Assembly: GCA_025056215.1 (NCBI GenBank)
Contig: JANWWC010000001.1
Coordinates: forward strand, 124,001-188,000
Origin: Cytophagales bacterium
Lineage (GTDB): Bacteria > Bacteroidota > Bacteroidia > Cytophagales > Flammeovirgaceae
Direction of reading: 5' to 3'
DNA length: 64,000 nt
This document shows positions 9,019-54,000 of the stretch, piece by piece. Position 1 is the stretch's first letter, and every line of letters begins with the position of its first letter. Under the pieces are notes generated by a model, which had not been told where the DNA came from, ran no database searches, and saw only the letters and a list, made by a program, of their open reading frames with translations. A program made the position numbers and the translations under genes.

Positions 9019-9909
9019 TTAATCTTTTATGCCAAGAGCTCGGGCAACGGCGTTGTAATCATTTTTGTCAATACCTTCGAGTGGATCTATAAACTCTTGA
9101 CGAGTTCCTGGTAATTTAGTTATCTTATAAGCAATAATGCGTGCCGGAAAATTTTTTACATTGTTAGTAGGGTCTGCTAAGAAAGGCATAAATTGGCATC
9201 GTATATTGATGGCGTCAGGGAATCCTCCACCTGCTGGCAAGAATCTGTATCCAAGCGATAGAGTAGTATCTTTATTGGCACCTCCAGACCATGTATAAGG
9301 AAGAGGGGTCCAAACATTATTTCTATTGTTTCCAAAACCATTTACGCGAATATAGGCTAATAACATGTAATTAGGAGTATCAATGTTCAAGTCTAGCAAG
9401 TGAGTGGTTTTGGTTAACTCTATAGCTACTGTTTCTCTTCCGTTTGACGTACTTGTAAAAGTCGTATCCATTACAAAAAGAGTAGCTCCTCCCGAACCTG
9501 CTGGACCTTGCGGACCTTGCGGACCCTGTGGACCCTGTGGACCTTGTGGACCCTGTGGACCTTGTGGACCTGCTGGACCTTTACAATCGTTAGTATCAAA
9601 AACGTTATCTCCATTTACATCTTCACTGGGATCATTTATGCCGTTTTTATTGATATCCCAGCAATTAATACCATTAGTGCCTGCTAGACCTTGTGGACCT
9701 TGGGCTCCTGCTGGACCCTGTGGACCTTGTGGACCTGCTGGACCTGCTGGACCTTGAGCACCTGTAGGACCTTGTGGACCTGCTGGACCTTGTGGACCTG
9801 CTGGACCTTGTGGACCTTGTGGACCTGTGTCTCCTTTGTCTCCTTTGCAGAACATTAATCCGAAAACTAATAGAAGAATTGAAAGATAGCTTAGAATTTT
9901 GTTTTTCAT
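9019..9909 (-). CDS. Collagen-like lipoprotein with calcium-loop insert
   Basis: 296 residues. A signal peptide ends in a lipobox (GLMFC, Cys about 21), followed directly by about 20 Gly-X-Y triplets (mostly GPQ and GPA, residues 23-83). Next is a 28-residue insert bounded by cysteines (C85 and C112) with acidic loops [13 protein letters not shown] and [12 protein letters not shown], which resemble EF-hand or thrombospondin type-3 calcium loops. A second run of about 10 triplets (including seven consecutive GPQ) follows, then a beta-rich globular head of about 150 residues. The design suggests a lipid-anchored trimeric stalk with a distal head at the cell surface. Bacterial triple helices need no hydroxyproline, and the GPQ-rich runs fit that. 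The head's ligand is unknown. A strong terminator follows the gene. Confidence 0.85.
9497..9580 (-). repeat. Tandem 9-base repeat encoding GPQ/GPA triplets
   Basis: Nearly identical 9-base units (plus-strand form GGACCTTGT, with C/T variants) encode the second collagen run of the lipoprotein. They are prone to slippage and could vary the stalk length in steps of three residues without a frameshift. Confidence 0.8.
9680..9838 (-). repeat. Imperfect 9-base repeat encoding the first collagen run
   Basis: A longer and more degenerate array of the same unit type encodes the membrane-proximal Gly-X-Y run ([12 protein letters not shown]). Interruptions make it less uniform than the distal block. 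Confidence 0.75.
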
Positions 9910-11255: not shown

Positions 11256-14200
11256 ATGAAAACCCGCATTATCGGTGTATTTTTAGGGCTTAGTATACTC
11301 AAATATGCTTACTGCCAAGAAGAAAGGCTTCGAATGGAGCATATTACTATCGAAAACGGACTTTCACACGATCATATTCAAGCATTGTATCAAGATTCAA
11401 GAGGATATCTCTGGATTGGCACGCGGGATGGATTGAACCGCTTTGATGGATATGAAATGGAAATCTACAAGCGCGATGAATTTGATTCCTCTGCGATTAT
11501 TGGAAACGATATTAAGCAAATTTACGAAGATAAACAAAAGAATTTATGGATTTGTTCTAATCGCGGATTGAGTCGTTACAATTGGAAAAAAGATAACTTT
11601 AAAAATTACATTATCAATCCTTCCGCACCAGTTGTGATTTGGAGTGTTTACGAGGATTCTTACGGTAATTTTTGGGTTGCTACTAACGATAGTGGATTAT
11701 ACCAGCTCGACCGTCAAAAAGAAATCTTTATTTCTTACTTCCATCCTAAAGCTCCCAAAGAAAATGCTGAAAAGTTGTTTTCTCAACAAGTAACTTGTTT
11801 CTTGGAAAAAGATAATTTCCTTTACATAGGAACCTTACATGGACTAGCTATCTACGATTATCGAAAAAAAACTTTTCAAACGCTTCAGTACGATATTAAC
11901 GATGAAACATCCGTCCCTAAAGGATTGATATCAAATTTGTATTTAGATTCTAAAAATCAAATTTGGGTATCATCTGAACTAGGGGGAGGAGTAGCAAAAT
12001 TTAATCCTGCGCACAAATATTTTGAAAGATTGCCTGTAAGTTATACTGAAAAATCAAATGTAATTCCATCTGGCAATATTTCGCGTGGGTGCATTGTTGA
12101 AACTTCTGACGCAAGGCTATGGGTAGGAACCTCTAACGGATTAGCAATTATTAACTTGCTCAATAATAATATTCAGATTTTTAAAAAGAATCCTTTCGAC
12201 AAAAGAAGTTTGAATAATAATAGAATCACTGCACTTACGGTAGATTATGCCAGTACAGTTTGGATTGGTACACCCACAGGACTACATAAAGCAGACCTAT
12301 ACAACCAAGGATTTCGTGTAATTGAATATTTAGAAGATACTAATTCTATTGTTGAAAACAATGTTAAAACAGTTCTTGAAGATTGGCAAGGCTATTGGTG
12401 GATAGGTACCTCACAAGGCTTGAACCGCTACGATCGCAAAAATAATCATTTTAAGTTATACGATACCGATAAGAAAAATGGCGCACTCATCAGTTCTAAC
12501 ATTACTTATTTATACGAAGACCGGGCAGGACAGTTATGGGTAGGATTTTATCCAAGCGGAATAGCAAAGTACAATAGAAGCAAAGACTCCTTCGAGTTTT
12601 TTGAAAGCGAGAAAGATAACCCTGTTACTATTTTTAATAGTCCTGTAACAGTGATCTACGAAGATAATGCTGGACTATTATGGGTAGGCACTCGTGCAGG
12701 ACTTTGTTACTACGATAAAGATGCAAAAATTTTTCAGCGATTTATACATGATCCTGAAAATGAGTTTAGTTTGAGCTTTAATGATATTTCTGATATTGTA
12801 GAAGATGGGAGTGGCAACTTGTGGATAGCTACACGGGGTGGCGGACTTAACATTTTTGAAAGGCGTCATGGTATTTTTAAAAGATATAGAAATAACAAAA
12901 AAGATGCTAAAAGCCTTTCTGATGACATGACTGTCGTTTTATTGAGAGATCACGATGGAAGATTGTGGGTAGGTACTAAAGAAGGAGGCATATGTTATTT
13001 TGATGAAAAAACGCAAAGTTTTATAAATTATCGTGAAAAAGATGGTTTAGCAAGTAATAATATCGTGTCATTAGAGCAAGATGAAAGGGGGTATCTTTGG
13101 ATAGGAACTAATCGAGGGCTTTCTCGTTTTATTTATGAGACCAAAACATTTAAAAATTATGGAGTAAAAGACGGATTGCCTAGCACCGAGTTTAATTTGC
13201 GAGCCTCCTGCCAAACCAAGAAATTTGAGATGCTTTTTGGTACCAATAATGGATTATTAGTTTTCAAGCCTGCAGAAATTTTAAACAATCCTATTCCGCC
13301 TAAAGTATCAATCACCGATATAGAAATTAACTATCAGAAAGTACCTATTGGAGAACCTAATAGTCCTCTTCAAAATAGTATTACTGAAACAAAAGAACTT
13401 TTTTTGGATTACGAACACAATACGGTTACGTTTTTATTTTCAGCATTTCACTTTGCAAGACCTGAACAAAATCAATACGCATACCAATTAGAAGGTTTTG
13501 ACAAAGGCTGGGTTTATACATCATCTCGAAGAAGATTTGCAGGCTATACTCATCTTGAACCTGGAAAATACATTTTTAAACTTAAAGCGTCGAACAACGA
13601 CGGACTTTGGACAGAACAGCCTGTTTCGCTTACGTTGCACATTCTACCTCCTTTTTGGCAAACATGGTGGTTTAAGACATTTCTGTTTATCCTTTTTGGT
13701 GTGATAAGTTATCTGAGCTATAAGGCTATTTTGAACCGAATGAAACGCCAACGATTGGAGAAATTAGTAGAAGAACGCACCAAGGAACTTTTGCAAAAAA
13801 ATGAACAAATTCAGATTATCAACGAGCAACTTAAGGCGCAATCAGAAGAACTTTTAAGGACAAACGAACGAATCAACCAACAAAATGAAGAGATGCGCAT
13901 TATTAACGAAACACTGGTACATCAAAAAGCAGAGTTAGAAGAGAAAAATGAGCAAATCTTAGTTCAGCGCGATCAACTCCAATTAATTAACTTAGAGCTT
14001 GCTGAGCAAAAAAAAGAAATCGAAGCGAGTATTCGTTATGCCAAAACCATGCAAGATGCTATTTTACCTTCCTTGCAACAGATGACGTCGGTATTTCCTG
14101 ATTCGTTTTTAATATTTTTACCTCGAGATATTGTATCTGGAGATTTTTATTGGTTTTCTCAAATAAAACCGAACGTATATGCTGTTGCTGTAGTAGATTG

Positions 14201-14777
14201 CACAGGACATGGAGTTCCAGGAGCTTTTATGTCGTTAGTGGGTCACACAGCACTTAAAGAAATTATTGTACAGCGCCAAATCCATAATCCTTCTCTTATT
14301 TTAGAAGAACTCAACACAAGTATTAGAACGACGCTCAAACAAGATACATCTACCAACGATGACGGTATGGATATAGCTTTTTGCATTATTGAAAAATTAT
14401 CTGATGGTACGAATAAAGTGCTATTTAGTGGTGCAAAGCGTCCTTTGTTTTACTTTCATCCAGAAACACAATCTTTGGAAGTGGTACATGGCGATAACAA
14501 ATCGATAGGTGGTATGCAAAGAAAAGATAAGCCATTTCAAGTATATGAATTCATATTTCCACCTAAAACAATCCTTTACTTATTTTCTGATGGATTGCCC
14601 GATCAAAATAATATTCATCGCCAAAAATTTACAACGCAAAATTTTAAAGAACTTCTCGCCTCTGTCTCATCGTTGGATATGCGTACACAAAAAGAGCGTA
14701 TTTTATTTGCTTTAAAAGAACATCAAGGCAAAATGCGCCAACGCGATGATATTACAGTGATCGGAATTCGCCTCTAA
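11256..14777 (+). CDS. Two-component-regulator propeller sensor with SpoIIE-type phosphatase
   Basis: 1,173 residues. After a signal peptide (cleavage near YAYCQ) there are 14 propeller blades of the Reg_prop type, each with a motif like YLWIGTRDGLNRFDG, NLWIATRGGGL or RLWVGTKEGG; 14 blades suit two seven-bladed propellers (residues about 25-680). A Y_Y_Y domain follows (FDKGWVYTSS and YIFKLKASNNDGLW, about 690-800), then one membrane helix (about 805-825), a coiled coil (about 830-930) and a PP2C-like SpoIIE domain with VSGDFYW and DCTGHGVPGAFMSL (about 955-1173). It should sense an external ligand, probably carbohydrate or a surface cue, and dephosphorylate a cytoplasmic Ser/Thr target such as an anti-sigma antagonist. 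It has no histidine kinase domain, unlike most propeller sensors. Confidence 0.9.
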   Translation: MKTRIIGVFLGLSILKYAYCQEERLRMEHITIENGLSHDHIQALYQDSRGYLWIGTRDGLNRFDGYEMEIYKRDEFDSSAIIGNDIKQIYEDKQKNLWICSNRGLSRYNWKKDNFKNYIINPSAPVVIWSVYEDSYGNFWVATNDSGLYQLDRQKEIFISYFHPKAPKENAEKLFSQQVTCFLEKDNFLYIGTLHGLAIYDYRKKTFQTLQYDINDETSVPKGLISNLYLDSKNQIWVSSELGGGVAKFNPAHKYFERLPVSYTEKSNVIPSGNISRGCIVETSDARLWVGTSNGLAIINLLNNNIQIFKKNPFDKRSLNNNRITALTVDYASTVWIGTPTGLHKADLYNQGFRVIEYLEDTNSIVENNVKTVLEDWQGYWWIGTSQGLNRYDRKNNHFKLYDTDKKNGALISSNITYLYEDRAGQLWVGFYPSGIAKYNRSKDSFEFFESEKDNPVTIFNSPVTVIYEDNAGLLWVGTRAGLCYYDKDAKIFQRFIHDPENEFSLSFNDISDIVEDGSGNLWIATRGGGLNIFERRHGIFKRYRNNKKDAKSLSDDMTVVLLRDHDGRLWVGTKEGGICYFDEKTQSFINYREKDGLASNNIVSLEQDERGYLWIGTNRGLSRFIYETKTFKNYGVKDGLPSTEFNLRASCQTKKFEMLFGTNNGLLVFKPAEILNNPIPPKVSITDIEINYQKVPIGEPNSPLQNSITETKELFLDYEHNTVTFLFSAFHFARPEQNQYAYQLEGFDKGWVYTSSRRRFAGYTHLEPGKYIFKLKASNNDGLWTEQPVSLTLHILPPFWQTWWFKTFLFILFGVISYLSYKAILNRMKRQRLEKLVEERTKELLQKNEQIQIINEQLKAQSEELLRTNERINQQNEEMRIINETLVHQKAELEEKNEQILVQRDQLQLINLELAEQKKEIEASIRYAKTMQDAILPSLQQMTSVFPDSFLIFLPRDIVSGDFYWFSQIKPNVYAVAVVDCTGHGVPGAFMSLVGHTALKEIIVQRQIHNPSLILEELNTSIRTTLKQDTSTNDDGMDIAFCIIEKLSDGTNKVLFSGAKRPLFYFHPETQSLEVVHGDNKSIGGMQRKDKPFQVYEFIFPPKTILYLFSDGLPDQNNIHRQKFTTQNFKELLASVSSLDMRTQKERILFALKEHQGKMRQRDDITVIGIRL

Positions 14778-14802: not shown

Positions 14803-15687
14803 ATGATGAATCTGGAGTTTTACGAGAATTTTTTTGAATCTGCTTTGCTTCAATGCGGAATTTTGGCTGAAGTACAATCTTATGAGTTTGTGGCAGGGGG
14901 TTGTATTAATGTTGCAGCTAAGGTTCAGACAAACAAAGGAACTTTTTTTATTAAATGGAATGAGCACGAAAATGCTATTGAAATGTTTGATGCAGAAGCG
15001 AAAGGACTCGAAACTCTAAAAAAAACCAATACGTTTCGAGTTCCTGAAGTGATAGGGGTAGGAAAGGTGGTTGAAAAATCTTTCTTACTCTTGGAATACA
15101 TAGGATTTGGTGTTAAAAGAAAAGACTTTTGGGAAATTTTTGGTTGGCAGTTAGCTCAACTTCATCGAAATACGTCTTCACAATTCGGTTTACACTTCGA
15201 TAACTTCATAGGCTCTTTGCCTCAAAAAAATACTTTTCACGATAGTTGGCATACTTTTTATTTTGAAGAAAGACTTCGCCCTCAAATGGAGTTAGCTTAC
15301 TACCAACAACTAATAGATAAATCTTATTTGTACAAATTAGATAAACTAGAAAAAGCAACAGAAGACCTATTTCCTCAGGAACCTCCTGCTTTACTACATG
15401 GCGATTTGTGGCATGGCAATTTTTTAGTTTCTCCTGATGGAATTCCTGTATTGATTGACCCTGCTATCTATTATGGACATCGTGAAATGGAACTCTCTTT
15501 TATGAAGTGGTTGGGCGGATTTGATGATACTGTTTTTCAAGTTTATTCAAATTGTTATCCTTTGTTTTCAAACTTTGTTCAAAGAATTTCATTGTATCAG
15601 CTCTATCCGATTATTGTACACCTTAACTTGTTTGGAATCTCTTATTTGCCTTCTCTTGTTCAAGTTTTCCAATCTTACTCACTTTAA
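14803..15687 (+). CDS. Fructosamine kinase family protein
   Basis: 294 residues with the fold of small-molecule kinases related to aminoglycoside phosphotransferases. The catalytic loop LLHGDLWHGNF and the metal-binding VLIDPAIYYGHREMEL are textbook fructosamine-kinase-family motifs, and the N-terminal lobe has TFFIKWNEH and the LLEYI hinge. Bacterial members phosphorylate ribulosamine- or fructosamine-type adducts and so repair glycated proteins, though many are uncharacterised. The ATG at 14803 lies 25 bases after the sensor phosphatase, so the two may be co-transcribed. An ATG one codon later (14806) is an equal choice. Confidence 0.88.
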   Translation: MMNLEFYENFFESALLQCGILAEVQSYEFVAGGCINVAAKVQTNKGTFFIKWNEHENAIEMFDAEAKGLETLKKTNTFRVPEVIGVGKVVEKSFLLLEYIGFGVKRKDFWEIFGWQLAQLHRNTSSQFGLHFDNFIGSLPQKNTFHDSWHTFYFEERLRPQMELAYYQQLIDKSYLYKLDKLEKATEDLFPQEPPALLHGDLWHGNFLVSPDGIPVLIDPAIYYGHREMELSFMKWLGGFDDTVFQVYSNCYPLFSNFVQRISLYQLYPIIVHLNLFGISYLPSLVQVFQSYSL

Positions 15688-15793: not shown

Positions 15794-18700
15794 ATGAAAA
15801 TGAAAATTTCTACTCAATTGATGCTTGTTCTACTGATGTTAGGGCAAGCAAGTTATGCCCAGCTAAATACGTGGATAAGAGTAAATGAAGGTTTTGCAAA
15901 GTGCGCTTCCATACATAATGGCAACGATGCTAATTTAGGAGGCGAAGCAGAGCAAACTGTAGACGATTTTACAGTGGAACAACTTCTTTCTAGAAGAGGG
16001 GAGGTATACGCTTATGTTACTTACGGAAATGCTGGTTCTAATCCTACAGCGTGTAATGGAGGGCTCTTTAAACACGATACAGTGCGCAATCTATGGCTAA
16101 AGGTAGCTGATTTGGCTCAAGCTCCCTCTTACGTTTTTACAAACGGCACTGATATATTTATTACGCAAGGAAATAACATCCTTCGCTATACTACTAATTA
16201 TACGAGTTTCCCGAATGGATGGCAAACTGTGGTATCAAATCTTAAGGGTAATGAAATTCCTGGAATGAGTTGTATAGATAATATAAATTTTGGAGAATAT
16301 ACTCACTTAAGATTTCCACAAGCAGTAGGAGATACAATTTATGCGTGGGCTTTTAATCCTTGTGGAAACTCTAACAGAATTGTGAAGTTCTATGTAGGAG
16401 GCTCGTCTTTTAATAAAGCAACTGATATAAGTGTTACAGTTGTAGGTACATTTCCAGATGAAGGCCTTCCTCAAACTTGCAATACGTCGAGCACAGGGGG
16501 TATCTCGTCGTATATAGTAACCGCACCAATTGGTGGTTTGTTTCAGTATTTCTTTCAAAGAGCTTTTCATGGACGAGATTATAGTATTCCTTTTTATGTG
16601 TGGGTATATGAGCCCCGCAACATTTCTTGGACAGACCCTGTAACAAAAGCTACTATAAATGGTCCAGGATGGAGAAATATTTCGCAAGGACCAGATTGGA
16701 AAAATGCTACTGGCAACTCAAATCCTGTAAATGTAAATCACCCTGATTTTGTGGATTTTTCAGCTGATATTTGCGACCCAGGAGATTGGACATCTGCGAG
16801 AAGTGTAAATGGAAGTGGAAGCATCATTCCACAAGGCCCTTCAGGTAAAATTATCATCTCCGACGATAGGACGCGCTTGTTCGCTTCCTCTGAAAATGGT
16901 GTTTACGAATGGATCGGAAGTGGGTGGGTATATCGTGCCGCTAGACGTGAAAATTCCGAACTTTACTTTACGAAAAATGGATTTTTCCAAATAGTCCGTT
17001 TAGGGCTTAACAGGGTAGATGGACCTAATACCCAAGAAATTGGACAGCCCGAATATTATGGAACTTGTCTTCAGAATAAGCCTGTTACTCATTTAACATC
17101 TCCAGACGAAGGCAGAACGCTGTATGCGGTCAGAAGAATTTTCCTTAATGATCCTACTTGCACTGGTTCTACAGAGGACGAAGGTATTTACAGATTAGTA
17201 GTAGATATCGACGGCCCTGCTACTGTAAGAAATATTGGCGTAGAATCTGCTACTTTCTTGGGAGATAGTACTAACCCGTCGGGTCATAATGAAGTAGTGA
17301 ACACAGGTGTAGCAGGTAACATGAACCACTTTGTAGCGGGTAACTTTGCAGGTGTTACTTCGCCTTATCCCTATGCTACTTATAATTTGCCAGCGACAGC
17401 ACAATTTCCAGCTGCTGTTTCTAGTACAAGAGCGAAAATACTGCAGTTCAATGCTCGAGGTGATTCAATTATTAGAGTTATTAACGTAGGAACTGCTGTA
17501 AACGATACTATTCATGACTTCGAGGTGATGAATAACTCACCTTTTAGGATGGTAGTGTCAGGAACTTTTGGTTTTCGCGTGCTAGATTCACTTGGAAATT
17601 TATTGTGGGGACGCAATCGCAATCAATGTCCTGGCTCTATTTATGAAGCAGGTTCTGCAGAACGTCCAGCAGGTTCTATTCTTTGCGACATTTCTAATGA
17701 CCAAAGCATTGTAATTTTGAGAGGTAAAACGTGGAGACGTTGGAATGCGAATGGAACCGATAGTTCTGGAACTCATACTTTTACCGATAATTACGTAGAA
17801 GACGTAACAATAAAGAACGATACCGCTTTCTTTGCAGGATTCAACAACTCTAACTTAGGAGGTGTTCCGAATAGTTGTGGAGAAACTGCCAGCCTACCAG
17901 TTCAATTTGCTTTTATCAAGCGATTTAAGGCTAACTTAGGAAATGCTTCTCCTACCCAAGTCGTTCCAAATACCTTTGGTATTGATGGTAATTTGTTAGG
18001 TCTCGACCAAGCCGATACGCGTGGATACCGAATCAATGTAGGGCAAGACGGCAAGCTCTATTTCATGGGAGAAGCTGCAGGAGGAAATAGTATTTTCCGC
18101 TGGAACGGACGAACTTCTGTTGAGTTAGGAGCTGACGGAACTCAAGGAACGGGCGATGATTGCAACACGTCTCTTATGTCGTCTGTAAGGAAGCTTGTTG
18201 AATCAGATCAGTTCTCCCAGCCTTTTAACACAAGCGCTGCTCACTTGGCGTATTTTGCTACTATAAATCCCAATACTGGTTTAGTAGAAAAAGGACAGTA
18301 TATTATTCCTCGCAACCAGTCAAACGGTGTTGGAAACTCTTATCGTGTAAAAGACGGCTATATTCATGCCGATAAAGACGGTTATGTGTATATTGCAGGT
18401 GCGTCTGCTTGCTGTGTAAATGGAACAGGTAGAGATATTCAAAAAGTGAACGGACAGCCTATCGCTCCTTATACAGGAGAAGACATGGCATTATTGATCG
18501 TTTCGCCTACTTATCGCACTAAGACGTTTTGGGGAGTTTTTGCAAAAGGAACTGCAGGTCGTGGACGTGGAGTAGGGATCGGAATTAGGGATACCACTCT
18601 TTCCTTTGTGGGCCGAGTGACTGCAGGAAATATGCATACTCGTAAACCAATTATAGCCAACCCTATTAACCCTGCTGATAATTCTATTTTCGACTCTTAT

Positions 18701-21700
18701 TTGGCAGTTTGGTATAGAGATATCTGGAAAACTTCTAAGCGCGATAGTATCATAGAAACCGTTCTTCCAGGAGATTCTGTCGTTCCTCCAGACGAGTTGA
18801 AGTTCAATGCAAGGTTTTCTATTAGCAACAAAACGCCGTGTGTTGCGACAGGTACAGTTAATTTCACCGATAAAACCTTTATTCCGAGTGGATGGACTGT
18901 TACTTCTCGTCTCTGGGAATTTGGAAGTGGAGCGTCACCAGCCACTTCTACCGCAGCCAATCCTACAGGAATTGTTTACAACACTACAGGTCTGAAAACT
19001 CCTAGACTTACAATTACTATCCAAAAAGGTTCTGAAACGAGGACATCGTCTTCACAACAGTTCTATAAAGATAGTATCAATGTAGTAGGTTCTGGCTATT
19101 CTCTTGGACCTATTACAGGAGAAACTCAAGTATGTCCCAATTACGAATGCGTTTACAGCATAAATCCTCCTGAACCAGGTGTGTTTTCTATCACATCCTA
19201 CACATGGACTGTTCCAGCGGGAGCAACCATCCTTTCAGGACAAGGCTCTAAATCTATTCGCGTGAAGTGGGGTAGTACGGGAGGTATGGTAAGTGTTAGT
19301 GCATCATTTGGTTGTGCCACCCCCGCTACGTCTAACTTATCAGTTACAGTTAGCACGACGCCACCGGCTACTCAAGCTTTCATGCTCGTAAATAGTCTTG
19401 TTCTTACTGCGGCTGAAACTAAAATTAGAAATATCCTGCAAGGAATGGGATACAATGTAACTATTAAAGAAGATAACAATTACACAATCAACGATGCTAC
19501 TTGCAAAGCACTCGTAGTGATTAGTAATACTAATGATACTTCTTTAGTAGATACAGCCTTCCGCAGCTTGCCTTCCAAAATGGTAGTAATGGATTCTCGC
19601 TTGTTTGGCAAGCTTAATATGACTTCTTCTCAAGGAACTACTACAGGACAAACTCAACTCAACATCTCGACATCTAACGGAGTACCCGCTACTTATACAG
19701 GATTGAATGGAGGAGTTCCTACAGGAAATCAAGTTGCTGTCACTTCAGCATCTGCATTTGGATGGGGAGTTCCTGCTGCAAGTGCTACTCACATAGCGTC
19801 TATTCTATCTAGTTCTAACCGAGTCATATTTGCTTACGACGCAGGTGCTACTATGGTGGGCGGCGCTATCGCACCCGAACTGCGAATTGGATTGGGCTTC
19901 TCCGCTGCAGCAGTGAACAACGCAAATGCCTTAGGAGACTCTCTCATCTTTAGAGCTCTCTGCTTCCCGAATAATACGTGTACACAACCTACCATCACCA
20001 CTACAAAAATAGACTCAGTAGCGTGTTATGGAGACTCTTTGACCATACGCATCCAGGTGTCTGGCACTATCAATCCGGGCAACGTTTATACAGTAGAGCT
20101 ATCTAATAGTGCTGGCTCATTTGCAAATCCAACAATATTAGGAACATTTACCTCTACATCGCTCGATACTTTTGTGAAAGTGCTTATTCCATCATCTCTA
20201 ACGCCTTGTACTTCGGGCAATTGTTATAGTATAAGAACAAAATCTTCTGCTCCTAATGCTGTAGGAACATCCACTCCAAGAGTTTATGTGGTAGCACCAG
20301 AGCCGTTTAAGATTATTGTGGTAGGTAATGCATCAGGTACTAGTAATAAAGTAAATGGAACACCTGCTGCAGTAAGTGGTTATGGTAGCGATCAAGCTTT
20401 GTTAGACTCTTTGAGAGCTTGGTATGGAAACTCAGATACGGTGGTTTACATCGATGGAGATGCATCAGCAGGTGTAACACAAGCTGATTTCAAATGCAAA
20501 GGTCTCGTAATCATAACAAGCAATGCTACTGGAAAAACTACGTGGGGAAGAGCTCTCGACGGATTAAATACCCCGATTATCTTTATGGGAGGAGAAATCG
20601 GAGAAGGTGCAGGATTCGGAGGCGCATCTAATTATACTTATGAACTAGGAGTAGGACAAGCAGGAAGAACAGACGTAAGTTCCCAAAGTACTATTCGCAT
20701 ATATGACAACACACATCCTTTGACGATAGGGGTAAATACGGGGGATATTCCTGCCTCTTTAAGTGACAATTTGGAAGCAGGTATAACTTTCTTTAGATTT
20801 TTGCCTTTCCAAGGTGCTAATATTAAATACCTCGCAGGAGGTAGAAAACCCACAACTACCTTTAATCCGACATTTTTCTATTACGATAAAGGTGATACTT
20901 TGTATGCAAACATCGATATTATTGATTTAGAAAATGCTTCATTCTCTCAGCCTAACGTCAAGGCTTTTGGAACGTGGACAACAGAAGGTTCCACAGATAA
21001 TAGGTTCGGTAGTAATGCCTATCGTACTAATAATCCTCCAACAGCAGGAGACTCCGTTCGATTTGCTTATATTCCAAGAGTGCCTGGAGTGTATGAAATA
21101 TTCGTTGGAAGCCATAGAAGTTCTAACGATTGCAATGATGCAAAAGTAAGGGTCAGAAATTCCTTAGGAAATACGGTCTTTTCTTATAATCAAGAAAGCA
21201 CCACAACCGCTTCTTATAATATCGTTAAAGTGGGCGATTTCAATTTGCCTACCGATACTACTTATGTTACAATCTTTCAAAGTGGAACTTGCGGTAGTGG
21301 AAAGGTATTAAAAGCCGATATGTTATGGGTTCAACGAAAAACGACAGCTCCTGCTAGAAGAGTAGGTTTCCCATGGACGCAAAGGCATTCTGTTGGTTCT
21401 TATCAAGGGCTGTTTAATAACTTGCATCCCAACATGCATCGATTGATGAAAAATTCTGTTTGCTGGGCTACAAATGGATTGAAAAACCGCAATACCTGTC
21501 AGTCGATTGCAGTAATTACAACAGGGGAATTGATTGTAAATGCAAACGATACACTTTGTGGTGCAGAAGGTACGAGAATAACCTTTACTTCCACACTCGA
21601 CAGCTTTAATGTAGGAAATGTATTTACTGTTCAGCTCTCTGATGCTTCTGGCAGTTTTGCTTCTCCCACTACCATAGGAACGCTTGCATCGCGCGTGCCA

Positions 21701-24550
21701 GATACTATTAAATTAGAAATTCCTGAAAGTTTGGTATCGGGTGGAAATTATAAAGTGAGAGTAGTGAGCTCTAATCCGCCGGTGATCGGCAGTGTAAGCT
21801 CTTTCAACCAAGCGTACGTAAGGATAGATAATTCCGACCCTAATCCTTTAGTAGGTTTATATAGTGATCCTTATTCAGCGCCTAGCGGTGTTAACAATAC
21901 TTTTCCTTCAGGAACAGTAGGACGCATCGGCAGTAACATGATGCACTTAACAACTTCAGACGTCGTTTTTACTCAGGGTGCAAGGTTCACTCCATCTCTT
22001 CCAGTAGCAGGGATTTATGCCGTTCAAGCATATATTCCCGATACAGTAAATACTTCTAGTTCTCCTACAATTAATAATACAGATAGGGCCACTTTTAGAG
22101 TCACGTATGGCGGTCTTAGGAGAGATATCCATGTGGATGTGACAAACGCTGCCAATCGAGGTAAATGGGTCACTATAGGTGCATTTCCCTTTACAACATC
22201 ACCATCTGATAATCATGTGATTATCGGAAGAGGAAGATCAACAGGTTCCTCTGATGTATTTGCTACTTCAAATCGTTTATCGGGTAGTGGAGTAGTACCA
22301 CTTACAGCTGCATTCTTCTTAAACGGAACATTAGATTCGAGTGGCACTCAGAGCGGAAATGGACAGGTGATAGATGCTATTCGATTTATTCCTATTGCTA
22401 ATGTGACGGGTCCACTATTGGTTGATTCGGTCATGGACAATCCTACTACAGATCCTGGTGTGGGCACTCATAGCTTCACAGTAACAAATGGTCGAGTCAT
22501 TATCCAAAACCCTACGACAGATAGAGTAACTACTTATGGAATGGATCCAAGAGTAAATGGAAATGCATTGATATTTTCTAGTATGGGAAATGTTCCTCCT
22601 GTTGATCAACCGAATTATATCGCTACTTACCGATTTGGTGTTCCTACACCAGGTAGTTATTGGCTTTATCGATTTAATAGAGCTACATCCGATTTTTGTA
22701 GCGGAGGAGGACAATTCTCTGTACAAGATAGCGTTTCTACTCATGTGTTCTCTGGAATTAATTGGGAATCAGGAGGTACATGGAGAAGAGCAATGAATCC
22801 GTCGACTCCTGATGGAAGCTGGCGAATTAAAGATACATTAACCATCACTATTACAGGTTTATGCTCTGAGAGTAGTATAAACACTCATATACCTATAGAC
22901 GGGTGGCGTTTGGTAAGTGTTCCTCCTGTTCTTACAATAAGAGTAGACTCTCAAGCTATTCGAATTGTAGGCGGAGTGAACACGTGGTTAGGTCACGACA
23001 CTGTCTGGAACAAACGGTCTAACTGGACATGCCGCGTTCCTGATAGAAATACCGATATACTGATACCTGCTTCGCCAGTGGGTGGTAACTTCCCCAGCAT
23101 TACATTGCCTGCTGAAGCAAGAAGCGTTCGCAACAGGGGTACTTTGCGCTTGCGTCCAGGTGCTGATTTGGCTGTAACAGACTCTTTCAACAACCAGGGA
23201 ACAGTTATTTCAAACACTGGTTCGATGCTCAGGATGGCATACAACCTCAACACCCATGCGTCATCAAAAGTCAGACAGCCACTCATTAGCACTACTCCAT
23301 TGACTTTGAATGGATTAGGAATTAATAGCGACTCCGGCGTAAGTCTCCAAACAAACCTGACACTAAACAGTTCTTTGTCGTTCACGAAGGGCAAGCTCTA
23401 CCTTAACGACAAAAAACTCACTCTCGACTCCACTCTTTCTATAAGCGGAGATAACGCCAGCAACTACGTAGTAACTCCGAACCAGGTGAGTGAAACGGGA
23501 GCGGGTTTTGTGCGCCGACGTGTTCGAATGGGAGGTACAGACGCAATATTCCCAATAGGAAATGATACTACCTATGCTCCTGTAACTTTGCGCAATACAG
23601 GTACTCGTAGTGTAGATTTCGAAGTGCGCACCTTCCAAGGGGTCTATTCAAATGGGTTGAGCGGTACTCTATTACCTGCTAGTCAGATAATCAACCGCAC
23701 ATGGCAAATCGACCCTTACTATTTGAACACGGCTGATTCTGGATTGCCTTCTATTGAAATTGTTTTGAGCTTCACTAATAAGGATACTACGCCAAACTTC
23801 GTATTTGCAAACGCTTATATATCTAATAATCGCCACATTCCAGGTGATAATACATGGAAGCAAATGCTCGACTTCGCAGGCTATACGTTCAATACTGCTC
23901 CTTCTGGAACAGGTACTGAAGCAGATCCTTATCGTTTAGCTGTTGGAAATGTTCGCCGCTTCTCTGTATTCGGGGTAGGCAGTGGTTCATCTCCGCTTCC
24001 TGTTGTTCTCACTCATTTCCGCGGCGTGAAAGAAGGCAACGATGCTATTTTGACGTGGGGCACTTCAACCGAATACGAGTTAGCAGGATTTGGCATTGAG
24101 CGCTCTTACAATCAAGCTGATTTCGAAGAAATCGGATTTGTAGAAGCTAAAAATGCTGGTCGGGCTACCTCTTATCGATATATCGATCCATCAATTCAGT
24201 ACGATTCTTATTATCGTCTGAAGATATATACTAATGGCGGAAAAGTGCAATATAGTCATGTTGTCTTTGTTCCGTCAGGAAAGCAGGCTAAGCCTTCCTT
24301 CGTGATATATCCTAATCCGACAAAAGGAAGCGTAACCCTTCAGTATACAGGAAAATTCGACGAGTCAGGAAATGTACTCTATATGGAATTGATGGATGTT
24401 ACAGGCAAACGAATCGGCTCTGCATCGGGTACAGTAGCATCTGTAAACGACGCTCTCAATAAGATGCTTCCTGCTGTATCGAAAGGTATGTATATCGTGG
24501 CACTGCGTTGGGGTGATGATACGCAACAAATCAAGATTGTAAAGGATTAA
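15794..24550 (+). CDS. Giant T9SS-exported surface protein with PKD, ThuA-like and golvesin-like modules
   Basis: 2,918 residues from ATG 15794 (a TTG lies one codon upstream). The signal peptide ends near ASYAQ. Residues up to about 1000 look like a beta-propeller-type sheet region with no clear name. Then come PKD-like domains (about 1005-1190, with SRLWEFGSGASP and TYTWTVPAG-like strands), two alpha/beta modules resembling ThuA/glutamine-amidotransferase folds (about 1195-1390 and 1500-1710), each followed by an Ig-like module with GNVYTVELS or GNVFTVQLS, and up to three golvesin-C-like beta-sandwiches (about 1715-1850, 2014-2205, 2210-2380). A beta-helix-like T9SS tail region (VWNKRSNW onward) ends in a type A sorting domain (VIYPNPTKGSVTLQY to IKIVKD). 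It is likely a surface adhesin or matrix protein; no catalytic site is certain. Confidence 0.85.
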   Translation: MKMKISTQLMLVLLMLGQASYAQLNTWIRVNEGFAKCASIHNGNDANLGGEAEQTVDDFTVEQLLSRRGEVYAYVTYGNAGSNPTACNGGLFKHDTVRNLWLKVADLAQAPSYVFTNGTDIFITQGNNILRYTTNYTSFPNGWQTVVSNLKGNEIPGMSCIDNINFGEYTHLRFPQAVGDTIYAWAFNPCGNSNRIVKFYVGGSSFNKATDISVTVVGTFPDEGLPQTCNTSSTGGISSYIVTAPIGGLFQYFFQRAFHGRDYSIPFYVWVYEPRNISWTDPVTKATINGPGWRNISQGPDWKNATGNSNPVNVNHPDFVDFSADICDPGDWTSARSVNGSGSIIPQGPSGKIIISDDRTRLFASSENGVYEWIGSGWVYRAARRENSELYFTKNGFFQIVRLGLNRVDGPNTQEIGQPEYYGTCLQNKPVTHLTSPDEGRTLYAVRRIFLNDPTCTGSTEDEGIYRLVVDIDGPATVRNIGVESATFLGDSTNPSGHNEVVNTGVAGNMNHFVAGNFAGVTSPYPYATYNLPATAQFPAAVSSTRAKILQFNARGDSIIRVINVGTAVNDTIHDFEVMNNSPFRMVVSGTFGFRVLDSLGNLLWGRNRNQCPGSIYEAGSAERPAGSILCDISNDQSIVILRGKTWRRWNANGTDSSGTHTFTDNYVEDVTIKNDTAFFAGFNNSNLGGVPNSCGETASLPVQFAFIKRFKANLGNASPTQVVPNTFGIDGNLLGLDQADTRGYRINVGQDGKLYFMGEAAGGNSIFRWNGRTSVELGADGTQGTGDDCNTSLMSSVRKLVESDQFSQPFNTSAAHLAYFATINPNTGLVEKGQYIIPRNQSNGVGNSYRVKDGYIHADKDGYVYIAGASACCVNGTGRDIQKVNGQPIAPYTGEDMALLIVSPTYRTKTFWGVFAKGTAGRGRGVGIGIRDTTLSFVGRVTAGNMHTRKPIIANPINPADNSIFDSYLAVWYRDIWKTSKRDSIIETVLPGDSVVPPDELKFNARFSISNKTPCVATGTVNFTDKTFIPSGWTVTSRLWEFGSGASPATSTAANPTGIVYNTTGLKTPRLTITIQKGSETRTSSSQQFYKDSINVVGSGYSLGPITGETQVCPNYECVYSINPPEPGVFSITSYTWTVPAGATILSGQGSKSIRVKWGSTGGMVSVSASFGCATPATSNLSVTVSTTPPATQAFMLVNSLVLTAAETKIRNILQGMGYNVTIKEDNNYTINDATCKALVVISNTNDTSLVDTAFRSLPSKMVVMDSRLFGKLNMTSSQGTTTGQTQLNISTSNGVPATYTGLNGGVPTGNQVAVTSASAFGWGVPAASATHIASILSSSNRVIFAYDAGATMVGGAIAPELRIGLGFSAAAVNNANALGDSLIFRALCFPNNTCTQPTITTTKIDSVACYGDSLTIRIQVSGTINPGNVYTVELSNSAGSFANPTILGTFTSTSLDTFVKVLIPSSLTPCTSGNCYSIRTKSSAPNAVGTSTPRVYVVAPEPFKIIVVGNASGTSNKVNGTPAAVSGYGSDQALLDSLRAWYGNSDTVVYIDGDASAGVTQADFKCKGLVIITSNATGKTTWGRALDGLNTPIIFMGGEIGEGAGFGGASNYTYELGVGQAGRTDVSSQSTIRIYDNTHPLTIGVNTGDIPASLSDNLEAGITFFRFLPFQGANIKYLAGGRKPTTTFNPTFFYYDKGDTLYANIDIIDLENASFSQPNVKAFGTWTTEGSTDNRFGSNAYRTNNPPTAGDSVRFAYIPRVPGVYEIFVGSHRSSNDCNDAKVRVRNSLGNTVFSYNQESTTTASYNIVKVGDFNLPTDTTYVTIFQSGTCGSGKVLKADMLWVQRKTTAPARRVGFPWTQRHSVGSYQGLFNNLHPNMHRLMKNSVCWATNGLKNRNTCQSIAVITTGELIVNANDTLCGAEGTRITFTSTLDSFNVGNVFTVQLSDASGSFASPTTIGTLASRVPDTIKLEIPESLVSGGNYKVRVVSSNPPVIGSVSSFNQAYVRIDNSDPNPLVGLYSDPYSAPSGVNNTFPSGTVGRIGSNMMHLTTSDVVFTQGARFTPSLPVAGIYAVQAYIPDTVNTSSSPTINNTDRATFRVTYGGLRRDIHVDVTNAANRGKWVTIGAFPFTTSPSDNHVIIGRGRSTGSSDVFATSNRLSGSGVVPLTAAFFLNGTLDSSGTQSGNGQVIDAIRFIPIANVTGPLLVDSVMDNPTTDPGVGTHSFTVTNGRVIIQNPTTDRVTTYGMDPRVNGNALIFSSMGNVPPVDQPNYIATYRFGVPTPGSYWLYRFNRATSDFCSGGGQFSVQDSVSTHVFSGINWESGGTWRRAMNPSTPDGSWRIKDTLTITITGLCSESSINTHIPIDGWRLVSVPPVLTIRVDSQAIRIVGGVNTWLGHDTVWNKRSNWTCRVPDRNTDILIPASPVGGNFPSITLPAEARSVRNRGTLRLRPGADLAVTDSFNNQGTVISNTGSMLRMAYNLNTHASSKVRQPLISTTPLTLNGLGINSDSGVSLQTNLTLNSSLSFTKGKLYLNDKKLTLDSTLSISGDNASNYVVTPNQVSETGAGFVRRRVRMGGTDAIFPIGNDTTYAPVTLRNTGTRSVDFEVRTFQGVYSNGLSGTLLPASQIINRTWQIDPYYLNTADSGLPSIEIVLSFTNKDTTPNFVFANAYISNNRHIPGDNTWKQMLDFAGYTFNTAPSGTGTEADPYRLAVGNVRRFSVFGVGSGSSPLPVVLTHFRGVKEGNDAILTWGTSTEYELAGFGIERSYNQADFEEIGFVEAKNAGRATSYRYIDPSIQYDSYYRLKIYTNGGKVQYSHVVFVPSGKQAKPSFVIYPNPTKGSVTLQYTGKFDESGNVLYMELMDVTGKRIGSASGTVASVNDALNKMLPAVSKGMYIVALRWGDDTQQIKIVKD

Positions 24551-47896: not shown

Positions 47897-48049
47897 AAAA
47901 AATTATTTTTCTGTTTACGATTTCGTAACTCGTTTTCTTTTTAAAATCTTCTAAAAAAGCTAAACTTTGTAAGGAATTTGGATATGCGAGAGTACGTCTT
48001 AAAACAAAGTACACTCAAAAGAATTTCCCAAAATTAAACTCTTTTGCGC

Positions 48050-51000
48050 ATGAAAACATTTTTACTTTGTCTACTGATACTATGTTCACTTACATCTTTC
48101 GCTCAAACTAATCCTACTCCTCAAGCAATTCCTTACACGCAAGATTTTTCTTCTTTAACGCATAGCTCTACTACTTACCCAGCGGGGTGGCAAGGTCATA
48201 CAATTTCAACGTCTCCAGGTGCTTCCTATAATACAACTGGACCTACGAGTGATAGGTCTTTAGTACAGAATGCGACAGCAGCTGATAATGTAGGAAACGT
48301 CTACAACTACAATGGTAAAATCGGATTTTTGAATACTGGCTCTCTCGATTTAACTCTCACTTTGGCTATTAATACCTCCAACGCTTACAATATTGAAGTA
48401 CAATACGATATCATGACTATTAGAAATCCTTATGATGGGAGTTCTAATACTCGCATCAATGAAGTAAGTTTACAATATCGGGTGGGAGTTACCGGCGCAT
48501 GGACCACCCTCACAGGGCAAGAGTATCAAAACAATACCACTCCTCAAACCAGCGGAACTACGCCACAGAAACTTGAAACTAAATCTGTAATCTTGCCAAG
48601 CGCTTGTAATAATCAGCCAGTAGTTCAACTGAGATGGGCTTCTCGCCAAGTTTCAGGAACTGGAGCAAGACCCAGTTTTGCGGTTGATAATATAGATATC
48701 CGACCACTTAATAAGTTTTGGGATGTTTCTGCTGGAGCAGGAAACGGAGTAGGAGGTACTGGCACGTGGGGAACTACTTTTTCTTTTCATGACAACGGAA
48801 GTGCTACTCTTACTACAGCGTCTGCTACAGATTCTGTTATCTTTCAAGGCAGCAGTGGAACTGTTACCCTAAATGCTAATCAAACTGTTGCAGGAATGCG
48901 TGTGAACGCTTCAGGATACTCTATCGCTACATCTGGCGGAGATAGAACTCTCACTGGCGGAATAAACCTCATGAGCAATAATCTTACTCTTGCTCCTGCT
49001 GCGGCTACAACGCTAACACTTCCGAGTGTAATTTCGGGAAACGGAAGCCTTACCCAAAATGGGGCGGGCACAACAGTGTTGGGGGGAGCCAACACCTATA
49101 CAGGCGGAACTACTATTTCTAACGGCATTCTTTCTATTAGTGCCGACAACAATTTGGGCGCTTCGGGCAGTAATGTTACAATCAACAATGCTACACTCGC
49201 CACTACAGCAACGTTTAGCAGTCCAAAAGTCTTTACACTCAACCATGCAAATTCCACTATTGATGTAGCATCGGGAACAACTTTTACTATTACCTCTACC
49301 AATGGCTTGACGGGCTCAGGTGGACTTATCAAAACGGGCGCTGGAACGCTTAAACTCGACCAAACTAATAATTATACAGGAAAAACAATCATCAACGGTG
49401 GAACAATTAATGCAGCAGGCGAAGGAAGATTTGGAACCAATCCCGGAAGCTTTGTTCCTGATCAAATTACTTTAAATGGAGGAACAATTCAAGCAACAGA
49501 TGGAAATATCACTTTTGATTCTAACAGAGGAATTACGCTCGGTGCAAGTGGTGGCACATTCGATGTAGGAGCTACCAGAACCATTACAGCAAGAAACGTG
49601 ATTACAGGAACAGGAGACCTTACTAAAACAGGTGATGGCGTTTTGGTATTCGATGTGCTAAGTACAGGTACTCATACTTACACAGGCGCTACTATTATCA
49701 ATGCAGGAACTTTAAGACTAGGAAACAGCCACGATATTCCCAACAACAGCAATATGGTGTTAAATGGTGGGACATTCTCCACTGGCAGTGGTGTTGGATA
49801 TAGCGATTCACTTGGGACGTTACAGCTACTTGAAAACTCTACAATTGCTTTAGGAACAGGCTCTCACACAATTGTATTTGCTGCTAGCAATGCCGTCTCT
49901 TGGACCTCTGGTAAAACTATTACTATTACAGGGTGGACAGGCACTGCAGGTAGTGCAGGAACTGCAGGAAGAATTTTTGTAGGAAACTCTTCCTCTGGAT
50001 TAACTACTGCTCAACTCTCACAAATCAATTTTTCAGGCTTTGGGTCAGGTGCAGAAATTTTAAGTACGGGCGAAGTTGTTCCAGCTTCTCCTCCCACACG
50101 TCTCAAAATTACGGCTATTGATTTTGTAAGTCCTGTTTCTGCGCTTACAGCAGGACAGCCTTTTCGCATTACTGTGCAATCGCAAGATAATGCGGGAATT
50201 CCTAAAAATGTTACTTCAAACACAGATGTACAAATTGCTAAAGTAATTGGAGATGGAAACCTTTCAGGTACACTAACAGGAACTATTCCGAGTGGCTCTA
50301 ATACAGTAATTATTTCAGGCGTATTGTATTCTGAGGCTGATACAGCTCGTTTTCGAGTATTTCGCACATCAGGAATGACGTTGAGCCCCGATACATCTAC
50401 TACTCAGCGCTTTTTCGGGCTTTCTGAAATTATTCTTCCTCAGTTTATACAGGGTCTCGATGGAACTAACAACAATCGCATTCCTACGGCTTATTACGTA
50501 AAATTCTTCGGTTTAAATCCTAACAGAACGCACCGCGTGATTAATCAAGTAATTGTATCGAGTGATGGAATTACTACTGATGGAGCAGGAAACTGCATCT
50601 TTGTAGATGGCTCTGGCAATTTTTCGCGCACATCAAGCCCCTCTTTAAGTACAGCAGGTTCTCATTTTTCCTTTACAACAAACTCGTTCGGCGAATACTC
50701 AGGTTGGTTTATTACTGAACCTACAGGCAACACCCGGTTCGCTCCTAACAACAACATTTATATTCGCTTTATAATAGACACATCGAACAACGGAGTTGCA
50801 GATATTCGCCTTACTACATCAGGCTCTTTGAATGTACTCAATTTTAGTACCTCTACTGGAGCGGGCAACGGTTCCGGAATTAGAAGTACTTCCATGGGAA
50901 CACCCAAAAATTTCGTAAGCGTGTTTGACAATACATCAGGCAGCGGACGACCTATTGCTTGTACTTACTTAGAAAGTAACGGATTAGATGAGCCTGATGC

Positions 51001-54000
51001 TAACTATGTTGATTTTCATGATACGCATGTAGATGGTACAAACGGAGCGTGGGGAATTATTTTTCCCAACGATAATTCAAATGGAGTAAGAAGAATCGAA
51101 CAACGCTCTCGAACCGATGGAAGTTTAGTAGGATGTGCTTACACTAGTAACAACGGAGTTTGGGGAAGTGTCAATACTACTGATAACACAGGCTCCACAG
51201 CAATGGTAATTACAGACGGCTATTTGGTATGTGCTCCTGAAATTAATGTAAAACAAAACAATACCGATTACGCTTCAGGTAGCACTTTTGCATACGGGCA
51301 ACGCCTATTGGCTAACAACCACGATATGACATTCGTAATTCAAAACTTAGGAGGAGCCAACTTGACAATTACCAGTACTACAGTTTCAGGAACTGGTTTT
51401 AGTTTGGTCAGTTCTCCGGCTTCTCCAGTCGCTCCAGGAGATTCTGCTACTTTCGTTGTTCGATTTACTCCAGCCACATCGGGAAGTTATACAGGAACGC
51501 TTACTATTAATAATAATGATTTTAATGAAGGTACTTATACTATCAATCTTACAGGATTGTGTACACCTGAAATCAACGTACAAGAAAGCGGCTCAGATAT
51601 TCCTGATAATACAGGAAGTGTGAACTTTGGAAGCGTTTCTACTAATTCTTATGCTGAAAAAACGTTTCTTATCCAGAATTTAGGAGGCGCCCCTATGAGT
51701 TTGAGTTATCCGAGTTTCACAGGTTCTAATCCTTCTGATTTTACTTTGCAAGGAGAATTTCCTGAAGATATCGCTCCTTTCTCGACAGGCTCTTTTATAT
51801 TGAGATTCACTCCTGGCGCAACAGGAGCACGCAGCGCTAACATTTCTTTTACTAACAACGATTCAGACGAAAATCCGTACAACTTTGCTCTCAATGGAAC
51901 AGGAGTAACTCCGCCTTCTGTGAGTATTACAGCTAACGATCCTACTCCATCGTTGGAATTGCCATTAGGCTCTATGAACAACGTTCTGTATAGAATCAAG
52001 GTAAAAAGTACGGGCACATCAGCTACTATCAACGCTATTACTGTTACTACGTTAGGAAGTTACAATATTAATGATGTAACTGCTTTTCGTCTTTGGTATT
52101 CCGCGGATAGCGTCTTCAACGCTTCATCTGATGAGTCATTAGGCGCTTCGTTTACGTCTGCTACTGCTATTTCTAATTATGTAGATGGCTTTACGAAAGT
52201 AATTGCGGCGGGCGACTCTGCTTATTTCTTCGTTACTGCCAATATTAGTATCAATCAGAGTGCAGCAGGAAAAACTGTAGGTGCTAAAATTAACGTAAAA
52301 GAGCATGTTCATTTCGTAGGAACACCTAACTGGGGAACTATTAGCATTGTAAGCGGCGCCGCTCATAATATCGTCTCCCCCTCTGTGCGCTTTAATATTG
52401 CAGAATCGTCCATTAGCGAAGGAACAGGTGTGGGAACAACTACTTATAATATCGCTTTGCGCTTATTTGGAAATATTCCAACTAACCAAGATATTACTTT
52501 TGCTATTAGTGGAACAGCTACTTGGGGAGGTTCGAACGATTTCACATTCGGAACTCTTGGAAGTGGATTTACTAAAATTACTGAAAACGCATCTACTCTT
52601 GTAATTAGAACACCTTTGAGTTCTATTAGTACACCTTTTACCCTGAATATTCCCGTGAATATTCTGCGCGATGCTATTGATGAAAACAACGAAACGGTGG
52701 TTCTCACTATTACAAATGCTGGACCCATCCATATCGACAATAACAATAAGATTTTTACTCTCACTATTCATGATGATGACGAGCCTTCTGTGATCAGCAT
52801 GCGTTCACCTCTCCAAATCATGGGAGAATCGGGCTCAACAGCTCAAAGAACTTATACTGTATATATGGACATAGTACCAGCTACGCCATTAGCTTCTACT
52901 ATCAAAATAAAAGTTACCAATCATGCAGGCGCTACCTATGGAGGAACTCACCCTAACGATTATATCACTTCGCCTGCTGTAGTGTCTGATACGATTACGG
53001 TGAATGCGAGCGTAAATGCTGCAAGCGTTTCATTTACAGTAACTGTTACAGAGGATGCATTAGGTCTCAACGAATCTCCTGATAGTGTGACTTTCGAAAT
53101 TGTGAGTGCTACTAACGGCATTTTAATTAATAATACTCAAAAACGCCACAGACTCGAAATTGTAGACGGCGCTTTTCTTGATGTAGGAGATTTCCTAATA
53201 TTAGGCGTAAATGCAAACGATAATGGTTGTAGTGGGCAACCAGATGACTACATTAGCTTTGTGTGTTTTAAAGATATCACTGTAGGAACAAGTATAGACC
53301 TTACAGACAATGGCTATGACAGATTAGACAATGGCAAATGGGGAAATAGTGAAGGTACTTTCCGATTTACTCGTACTACATCAACTATTCCAGCAAATAC
53401 AATTATTAAAATCAAATTGCCTAATACAGGAACTCCTTCTGGTGTTTCTCCAGATAACAATTGGAGCGTTACAAACCTAAACTTTGGAACCACTAGTTTT
53501 AATATGAACAGTGGAGGAGATCAAGTCTACTTTATGCAAGGCGGAACTTGGAATAGTGGTACATCTCTTGGTAGCCATGATGCTGAATACGTAGGCGGAA
53601 GGATTCTTTTTGGGTTTTCTTCCTCAGGTTCTTGGTGTACATCTAACTGTAATTCTTCTCAAAAATCGAAGCTATATCCCAATTTAGAGTGTTTTAACAT
53701 AGCTCCATCAGTTGCTACCGATTTTAGCTCTATCTCATCTTCGGTACTGACTACTCCTAAAACTAAAAGAGAGTGGGTGTTAGCAGTTGGCAATTCTTCT
53801 AATTGGGTGAATCGAGGCAATTGTTCTAACTACAATGCTAACGAACCTTCCGGAACTATTACAGTCAATCCTGGCGGATTTGAAAAGGGGCTATGGGTAG
53901 GGAGCGCCTCAACAGATTGGTATAACTGTGCAAATTGGCAAAGTTTATCAATCCCAGAACTTACAGACAACGTAATAATTCCTTCTTCTGCATCAAATCA

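Follow-up and report, generated by a model that had tools for sequence, protein, structure and literature searches.

Profile comparison indicates two homologous alpha/beta modules, one split by a golvesin domain, in a giant T9SS protein of a Cytophagales bacterium

Introduction

Among the closest described systems are two glycan binders with a ThuA/GATase1-like fold. According to the accessible text of the respective reports, CBM87 of Agd3 resembles GATase1-like and ThuA-like proteins most closely, is without the Cys-His-Glu triad and binds glycan (PMC7229062), and the ThuA/GATase1-like C-terminal domain of the levan SGBP, a Bacteroidota surface protein, binds glycan as well (PMC7618045). In the available parts of two further reports, glycan binding was suggested by the authors for a PelA domain with ThuA-like DALI hits (PMC12022489), and a domain of ThuA/GATase1-like fold lies inside an enzyme, dimethylformamidase (PMC7686228). 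Golvesin, as far as the accessible text goes, carries a CBM6-CBM35-CBM36_like_2 domain, a type discussed together with the lectins Cbeg4 and Cbeg5 (PMC9166713). We infer that this domain is the Pfam family Golvesin_C.

Here we describe a giant protein (hereafter, P0001) encoded in a Cytophagales bacterium, in a stretch of 64,000 nucleotides that was analysed as a whole (hereafter, the window). Two of its modules, M1 and M2, are likened to CBM87 and the levan SGBP domain by description only, and the accessible text on these two describes no split by another domain, unlike what we report for M2. The papers listed in literature searches on ThuA-like domains, alone or together with the binding of glycans or type IX secretion, included the reports above and none on the M1/M2 domain.

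Results

Domain layout of the giant protein

P0001 is encoded by an open reading frame of 2918 aa on the forward strand (15794..24550), as are all of its features given below. Its N-terminus is signal-peptide-like by eye, and its C terminus has the T9SS sorting tail of type A cargo, which was matched by both PF18962 (Por_Secre_tail, residues 2838-2915, 24305..24538; 30.7 bits, cut-off 27) and TIGR04183 (residues 2838-2917). The giant T9SS protein reported at 15794-24550 in the preliminary description is thus confirmed, and the sequence strings quoted there are present at residues 1237, 1261, 1568 and 1593.

In the central part, a PKD_6 domain (residues 1104-1184, 19103..19345; Pfam 66.6 bits, cut-off 25) is followed by M1 (residues 1192-1396, 19367..19981) and a spacer that looks Ig-like by eye (residues 1399-1502, 19988..20299). 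M2 consists of an N-terminal piece (residues 1503-1712, 20300..20929) and a C-terminal piece (residues 1849-1902, 21338..21499), the latter being the last strand and helix of the module, and between them lies a golvesin domain (residues 1713-1848, 20930..21337; PF25275 at 1719-1843). A second spacer (residues 1934-2001, 21593..21796) resembles the first, with a phmmer score of 39.7 bits. Golvesin_C scored 67.5 bits over the whole protein, above its cut-off of 31.6, in two stretches of which 1719-1843 was the best; a phmmer query with this first stretch returned itself alone and not the second. M1 and M2 themselves had no match at cut-off to any Pfam or NCBIfam model, and the weak Pfam rows below cut-off were RodZ_C on M2 (E 0.025 and 0.0033 in two scans) and DUF5440 on M1 (E 0.14). 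As part of the overall explanation weighed in the Discussion, P0001 may be a surface protein secreted by the type IX system, in which a unit of alpha/beta module plus spacer occurs twice.

Several other genes of the window were also inspected. A fructosamine kinase gene (14803-15687) lies directly upstream of the P0001 gene on the same strand, and two genes upstream is one for a protein with a Reg_prop propeller, Y_Y_Y and SpoIIE (11256-14777). The reverse strand encodes, at 9019-9909, a protein of 296 aa whose triple-helix repeats are collagen-like (Pfam Collagen). A second giant T9SS protein of 2657 aa (48044-56017) has PATR repeats together with an Ig domain of the HYDIN/ASH type, and the independent HMM (see below) detected no module of the M1/M2 family in it.

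Relationship of M1 and M2 and the split of M2

The M1-M2 relationship was evaluated with an HMM built from 12 related modules without any P0001 sequence (hereafter, the independent HMM). It matched M1 at residues 1193-1396 with 124.6 bits, and M2 as two pieces at 1561-1652 (12.6 bits) and 1849-1894 (8.9 bits), the gap between which is filled by the Golvesin_C domain. When the two pieces of M2 were joined, the best-domain score was 34.4 bits vs 19.1 for the N-terminal piece alone. We also joined the N-terminal piece with other stretches of P0001, excluding in advance five start points that overlap the true C-terminal piece; 139 control joins were scored, and the 10 starting in M1 were removed before the count. 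The remaining 129 reached at most 19.1 bits, and 6 of the 10 starting in M1 scored 27.8 to 36.6, as expected of M1 pieces. Shuffled M2 sequences produced a score row in 584 of 1000 cases, with a maximum of 5.0. The control joins ruled out that residues 1849-1902 are an unrelated linker.

When built from the 10 canonical members alone, an HMM detected the M2 pieces only faintly, with 4.2 bits (E 0.0087) and 5.9 bits (E 0.0026) when six proteins were searched. Profile A5, which contains M1, had two matches in the whole genome, one to M1 (5.3e-64) and one to the N-terminal piece of M2 (2.0e-4). The 110.8 and 37.6 bits given to the M2 pieces by an HMM that includes M2 itself are not independent evidence. 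The direct local alignment of M1 and M2 was not significant, its score of 47 being matched by 80 of 1000 shuffles. The alignment of the two copies claimed in the preliminary description thus finds no support in direct comparison, and is supported through the family profile and two cysteine columns that joined M2 has in common with M1. Its limits for M2 (1500-1710) were incomplete, as the module ends with a strand and a helix at about 1849-1902, beyond the golvesin domain. It had also missed the insertion of this domain inside M2.

At the level of profiles, these results establish M1 and M2 as homologous members of one unnamed, presumably extracytoplasmic family. They likewise establish M2 as a split domain, given that Golvesin_C (1719-1843) sits between its two pieces. 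The golvesin domain would be inserted into the loop preceding the last strand, by which M2 would display a second binding domain.

Cysteines and conserved positions

Exactly three cysteines were found in five of the six T9SS modules, i.e., M1 (Cys 1237, 1390 and 1396), M2 (Cys 1568, 1890 and 1902), G058_a, G043_a and G043_b, and not in G058_b. Among the canonical members, 9/10 have no cysteine and one has a single cysteine, and the module is without cysteine in the five single-domain forms aligned. The three cysteines of the T9SS modules precede the third strand or lie at the C-terminal end. In the alignment, which used joined M2, two cysteine columns are common to all five three-cysteine modules, the first preceding the third strand and the second within the last helix; the remaining cysteine falls in one column in M1, G058_a, G043_a and G043_b, and six columns off in M2. 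The M2 pattern requires C1890 and C1902, both of which lie beyond the golvesin domain.

We found no cysteine column common to the 10 canonical members, as the Cys-His-Glu triad of class I GATases would need. A total of 46 positions are conserved in at least eight of these members, which individually keep 37 to 45 of them; M1 keeps 27 and M2 22, a loss that points to degenerate modules or to a change of ligand. M1 and M2 could be active ThuA-type enzymes acting on sugars, in line with a possible ThuA-like topology and with the alginate lyase in one relative (P0006), but we consider this very improbable, given the absent conserved cysteine, the erosion of family-conserved positions in both modules and the lack of any family match above cut-off on them.

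The lost positions could also mean that M1 and M2 are mere structural spacers, which, like the PKD and Ig-like repeats, would extend an adhesin stalk without binding any ligand, with golvesin as the only binding domain. Their placement among PKD and Ig-like repeats would fit such a role, as would the cysteine pattern, which was found in 5/6 T9SS modules and 0/10 canonical members and suggests stabilisation. However, an alpha/beta domain of 200 aa would be a costly spacer, and the family includes single-domain relatives with a signal-like start (by eye). Taken together, a pure spacer role seems unlikely to us.

Predicted fold

The AlphaFold2 model of M1, based on three alignment rows, has alternating strands and helices, though at low confidence (pTM 0.56, mean pLDDT 46.7, residues 81-152 of the modelled segment below pLDDT 50). 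That of M2 was unusable (mean pLDDT 39.4). The alternating strand/helix structure proposed in place of a beta-sandwich is therefore retained for M1, at this low confidence, and the prediction failed for M2. In fold searches with the M1 model, Foldseek returned no match at E <= 0.001 in the PDB, and BFVD likewise gave none; the M2 model was too poor for a search. The VIA-align comparison of the M1 model gave a Z of 5.7 at best, below the guide value of 8 for this tool, with mixed rows of flavodoxins (Z 5.2-5.6), GATase subunits (anthranilate synthase and aminodeoxychorismate synthase, Z 5.4), the C-terminal region of catalase HPII, and OST48, each represented at Z 5.3 to 5.6. ThuA is absent from the VIA-align rows listed, which we did not count as evidence. 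Sequence searches of the PDB with P0001 and with the module profiles had no hit at E <= 0.05 (best E values of 0.071, 0.3 and 1.6, and one search without any hit), and the PDB sequence matches of the relative P0007 were confined to its fibronectin part.

Profile-profile comparison gave similar scores for several families. In local hhalign runs the canonical set had its highest scores with ThuA (26.3), GATase (26.2) and flavodoxin (24.3), which are indistinguishable and have probabilities of 7-10%, followed by DJ-1 (13.3) and GldG (11.1). With the T9SS modules except M2 added, the scores were 21.1, 29.1, 20.5, 13.1 and 13.5, respectively, with a GATase probability of 21.6%. Across runs, the probability of the module family to ThuA was 2-9%. 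As yardsticks, ThuA scored 20.5 to GATase and 21.7 to flavodoxin, so hhalign barely separates these families at this depth. In global mode, the ThuA and GATase scores of the canonical set were equalled or beaten by 78 and 65 of 80 block-shuffled nulls, respectively, and its DJ-1 score was reached by only 2/80; a 183-column ThuA alignment was obtained with A5 and none with the canonical set. Column-shuffled nulls exceeded the real ThuA score in 1/200 cases for the set with T9SS modules and in 0/200 and 1/60 for the canonical set, these null sets containing unexplained outliers of 133 to 136. The ThuA family PF06283 (cut-off 33.4 bits) had no match in the own genome, including P0001, M1 and M2, or in the scanned relatives, and class I GATase PF00117 (cut-off 22.8 bits) had seven matches in the own genome, none of them in the P0001 gene. 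Resemblance to ThuA (PF06283) is seen in a similar predicted order of strands and helices and in an aligned HP-x-x-x-GL-like motif, the HP of which is present in 9/10 canonical members.

The comparisons support a putative Rossmann-like alpha/beta domain, and the choice between ThuA/GATase and flavodoxin is not decided by sequence. If M1 and M2 were flavodoxin-like domains unrelated to ThuA or class I amidotransferases, this would agree with the flavodoxin score of the canonical set (24.3 vs 26.3 for ThuA and 26.2 for GATase), the many flavodoxins (Z about 5.5) among the top VIA-align rows, and the absence of both a ThuA Pfam match and a global alignment of the canonical set with ThuA. Against it, the strands and helices modelled for M1 and the HP-x-x-x-GL motif come in the same order as in ThuA in alignments, GATase has the top score (29.1) once the T9SS modules are added, and GATase subunits and OST48 appear at almost equal Z. 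We regard the flavodoxin alternative as somewhat unlikely, and infer a possible ThuA/GATase1-like topology of the modules. Of the fold claim in the preliminary description, what stands is that a giant T9SS protein has a pair of homologous alpha/beta modules, and the specific ThuA/class I GATase label was not established.

Relatives in Cytophagales and the phylum

Used as a single query, M1 had matches in 6/390 genomes of the order, the own genome included, and the M2 core (P0003) matched only itself in these genomes. A 13-module profile had matches in 10 of the 390, and an earlier 7-row profile in 4/296 genomes of the phylum, in both cases including the own genome (for the latter, with three others). 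Three of the modules newly matched by the 13-module profile are in open frames of ~2300 residues, one of which was fetched (L130, below). No relative of the module was found in viral collections (five scans) or in phage records, and no model reached its cut-off on further modules scanned with Pfam (five) or NCBIfam (four).

P0004 and P0005, from two genomes of the same order, are giants built like P0001 with two modules each (P0005 is cut by its contig end), and P0008 also has two modules. Spacers resembling P0001 1399-1502 were detected at 1934-2001 and after every module of P0004, P0005 and P0008, all of which share the domain family and the two module-plus-spacer units with P0001. Unlike M2, their modules are uninterrupted, without an insert; the best of the three golvesin stretches of P0004 (2358-2467) is outside its modules, whereas that of P0001 is nested inside M2. 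M2 of P0001 was the only inspected module with a golvesin insertion. Other relatives have a single module, which is accompanied by an alginate lyase domain in P0006 and by fibronectin repeats in P0007 (Flexithrix dorotheae). In a 2306-aa T9SS protein from a genome of the same family (L130:1343-8263), the module occurs alongside PKD, CBM_3 and cytochrome c domains.

An unrooted tree was built from 16 divergent sequences; it placed M1 with G058_a (support of 0.898) and M2 with G058_b (0.860), and several of its other nodes were weak. Since M1 and M2 group with the first and second G058 module, respectively, the module pair probably predates the split of the P0001 and G058 lineages.

Stand-alone relatives on proteobacterial plasmids

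A module relative is encoded in 12 of 72,556 plasmid records, which belong to Cupriavidus, Caballeronia, Acinetobacter, Novosphingobium and Polymorphobacter. The proteins at the seven loci fetched have roughly 215-270 residues, and the five plasmid proteins that were read have signal-like starts by eye. One of the single-domain members, WP_151764412.1 of Acinetobacter soli, was assigned to the family of the P0001 modules by profile or tblastn. The plasmid single-domain relatives that were scanned likewise had no match at cut-off to a Pfam or NCBIfam model.

At five of the seven loci fetched from the 12 records, the single-domain gene starts <200 bases after, or overlaps, a gene for a TonB-dependent receptor (L041:3881-4567, L112:5926-6576, L042:3857-4567, L044:2797-3612 and L045:2869-3615). 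The four receptors tested passed the TIGR01783 siderophore-receptor cut-off, and the fifth is annotated as a siderophore receptor. At the two Polymorphobacter loci (L043 and L113), the single-domain gene is preceded by a 2-hydroxycarboxylate transporter gene. The Cupriavidus locus has a FecR gene upstream and a GH3 gene downstream, ~2 kb from the module copy. The TonB siderophore receptor neighbours point to a different ligand for the stand-alone relatives.

Discussion

The context, the precedents and the neighbouring domains suggest that M1 and M2 are most likely non-catalytic glycan-binding modules on a T9SS surface protein, and binding would be more likely than catalysis. They would bind a glycan or a similar ligand without catalysis, with adhesion or capture of polysaccharide as the outcome. 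The non-enzymatic carbohydrate-binding role considered in the preliminary description is thus plausible by precedent, as judged from the accessible text on Agd3 (PMC7229062) and the levan SGBP (PMC7618045). A carbohydrate setting is seen in some relatives, with the alginate lyase of P0006, CBM_3 in the L130 protein, golvesin in P0004, and GH3 near the Cupriavidus copy. On the other hand, P0007 and P0008 have no Pfam domain of a carbohydrate-active enzyme or carbohydrate-binding module above cut-off, which counts against glycan binding as a trait of the family, and the cytochrome c domains of the L130 protein count against a carbohydrate role. The best explanation as a whole, i.e., a surface protein with two homologous alpha/beta modules, M2 split by golvesin, and glycan binding, has in our judgement an even chance of being correct.

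More speculatively, and in our view doubtful as a complete picture, the modules may represent an undescribed extracytoplasmic alpha/beta family of ligand-binding domains. Its members would serve in Proteobacteria as small secreted or periplasmic partners of TonB siderophore receptors, and in Bacteroidota as paired adhesin modules, with one copy carrying a lectin-type golvesin domain to form a composite glycan-binding head.

For stretches without a Pfam or NCBIfam model at cut-off in the scanned proteins, the results provide a domain worth naming, which occurs in further members of the order, in three additional genomes sampled from the phylum, and on proteobacterial plasmids. P0001 would be a case of a domain nested in a domain within a T9SS surface protein, for which insert-free relatives exist. 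The linkage of small hypothetical proteins to TonB siderophore receptors makes the role of these proteins testable.
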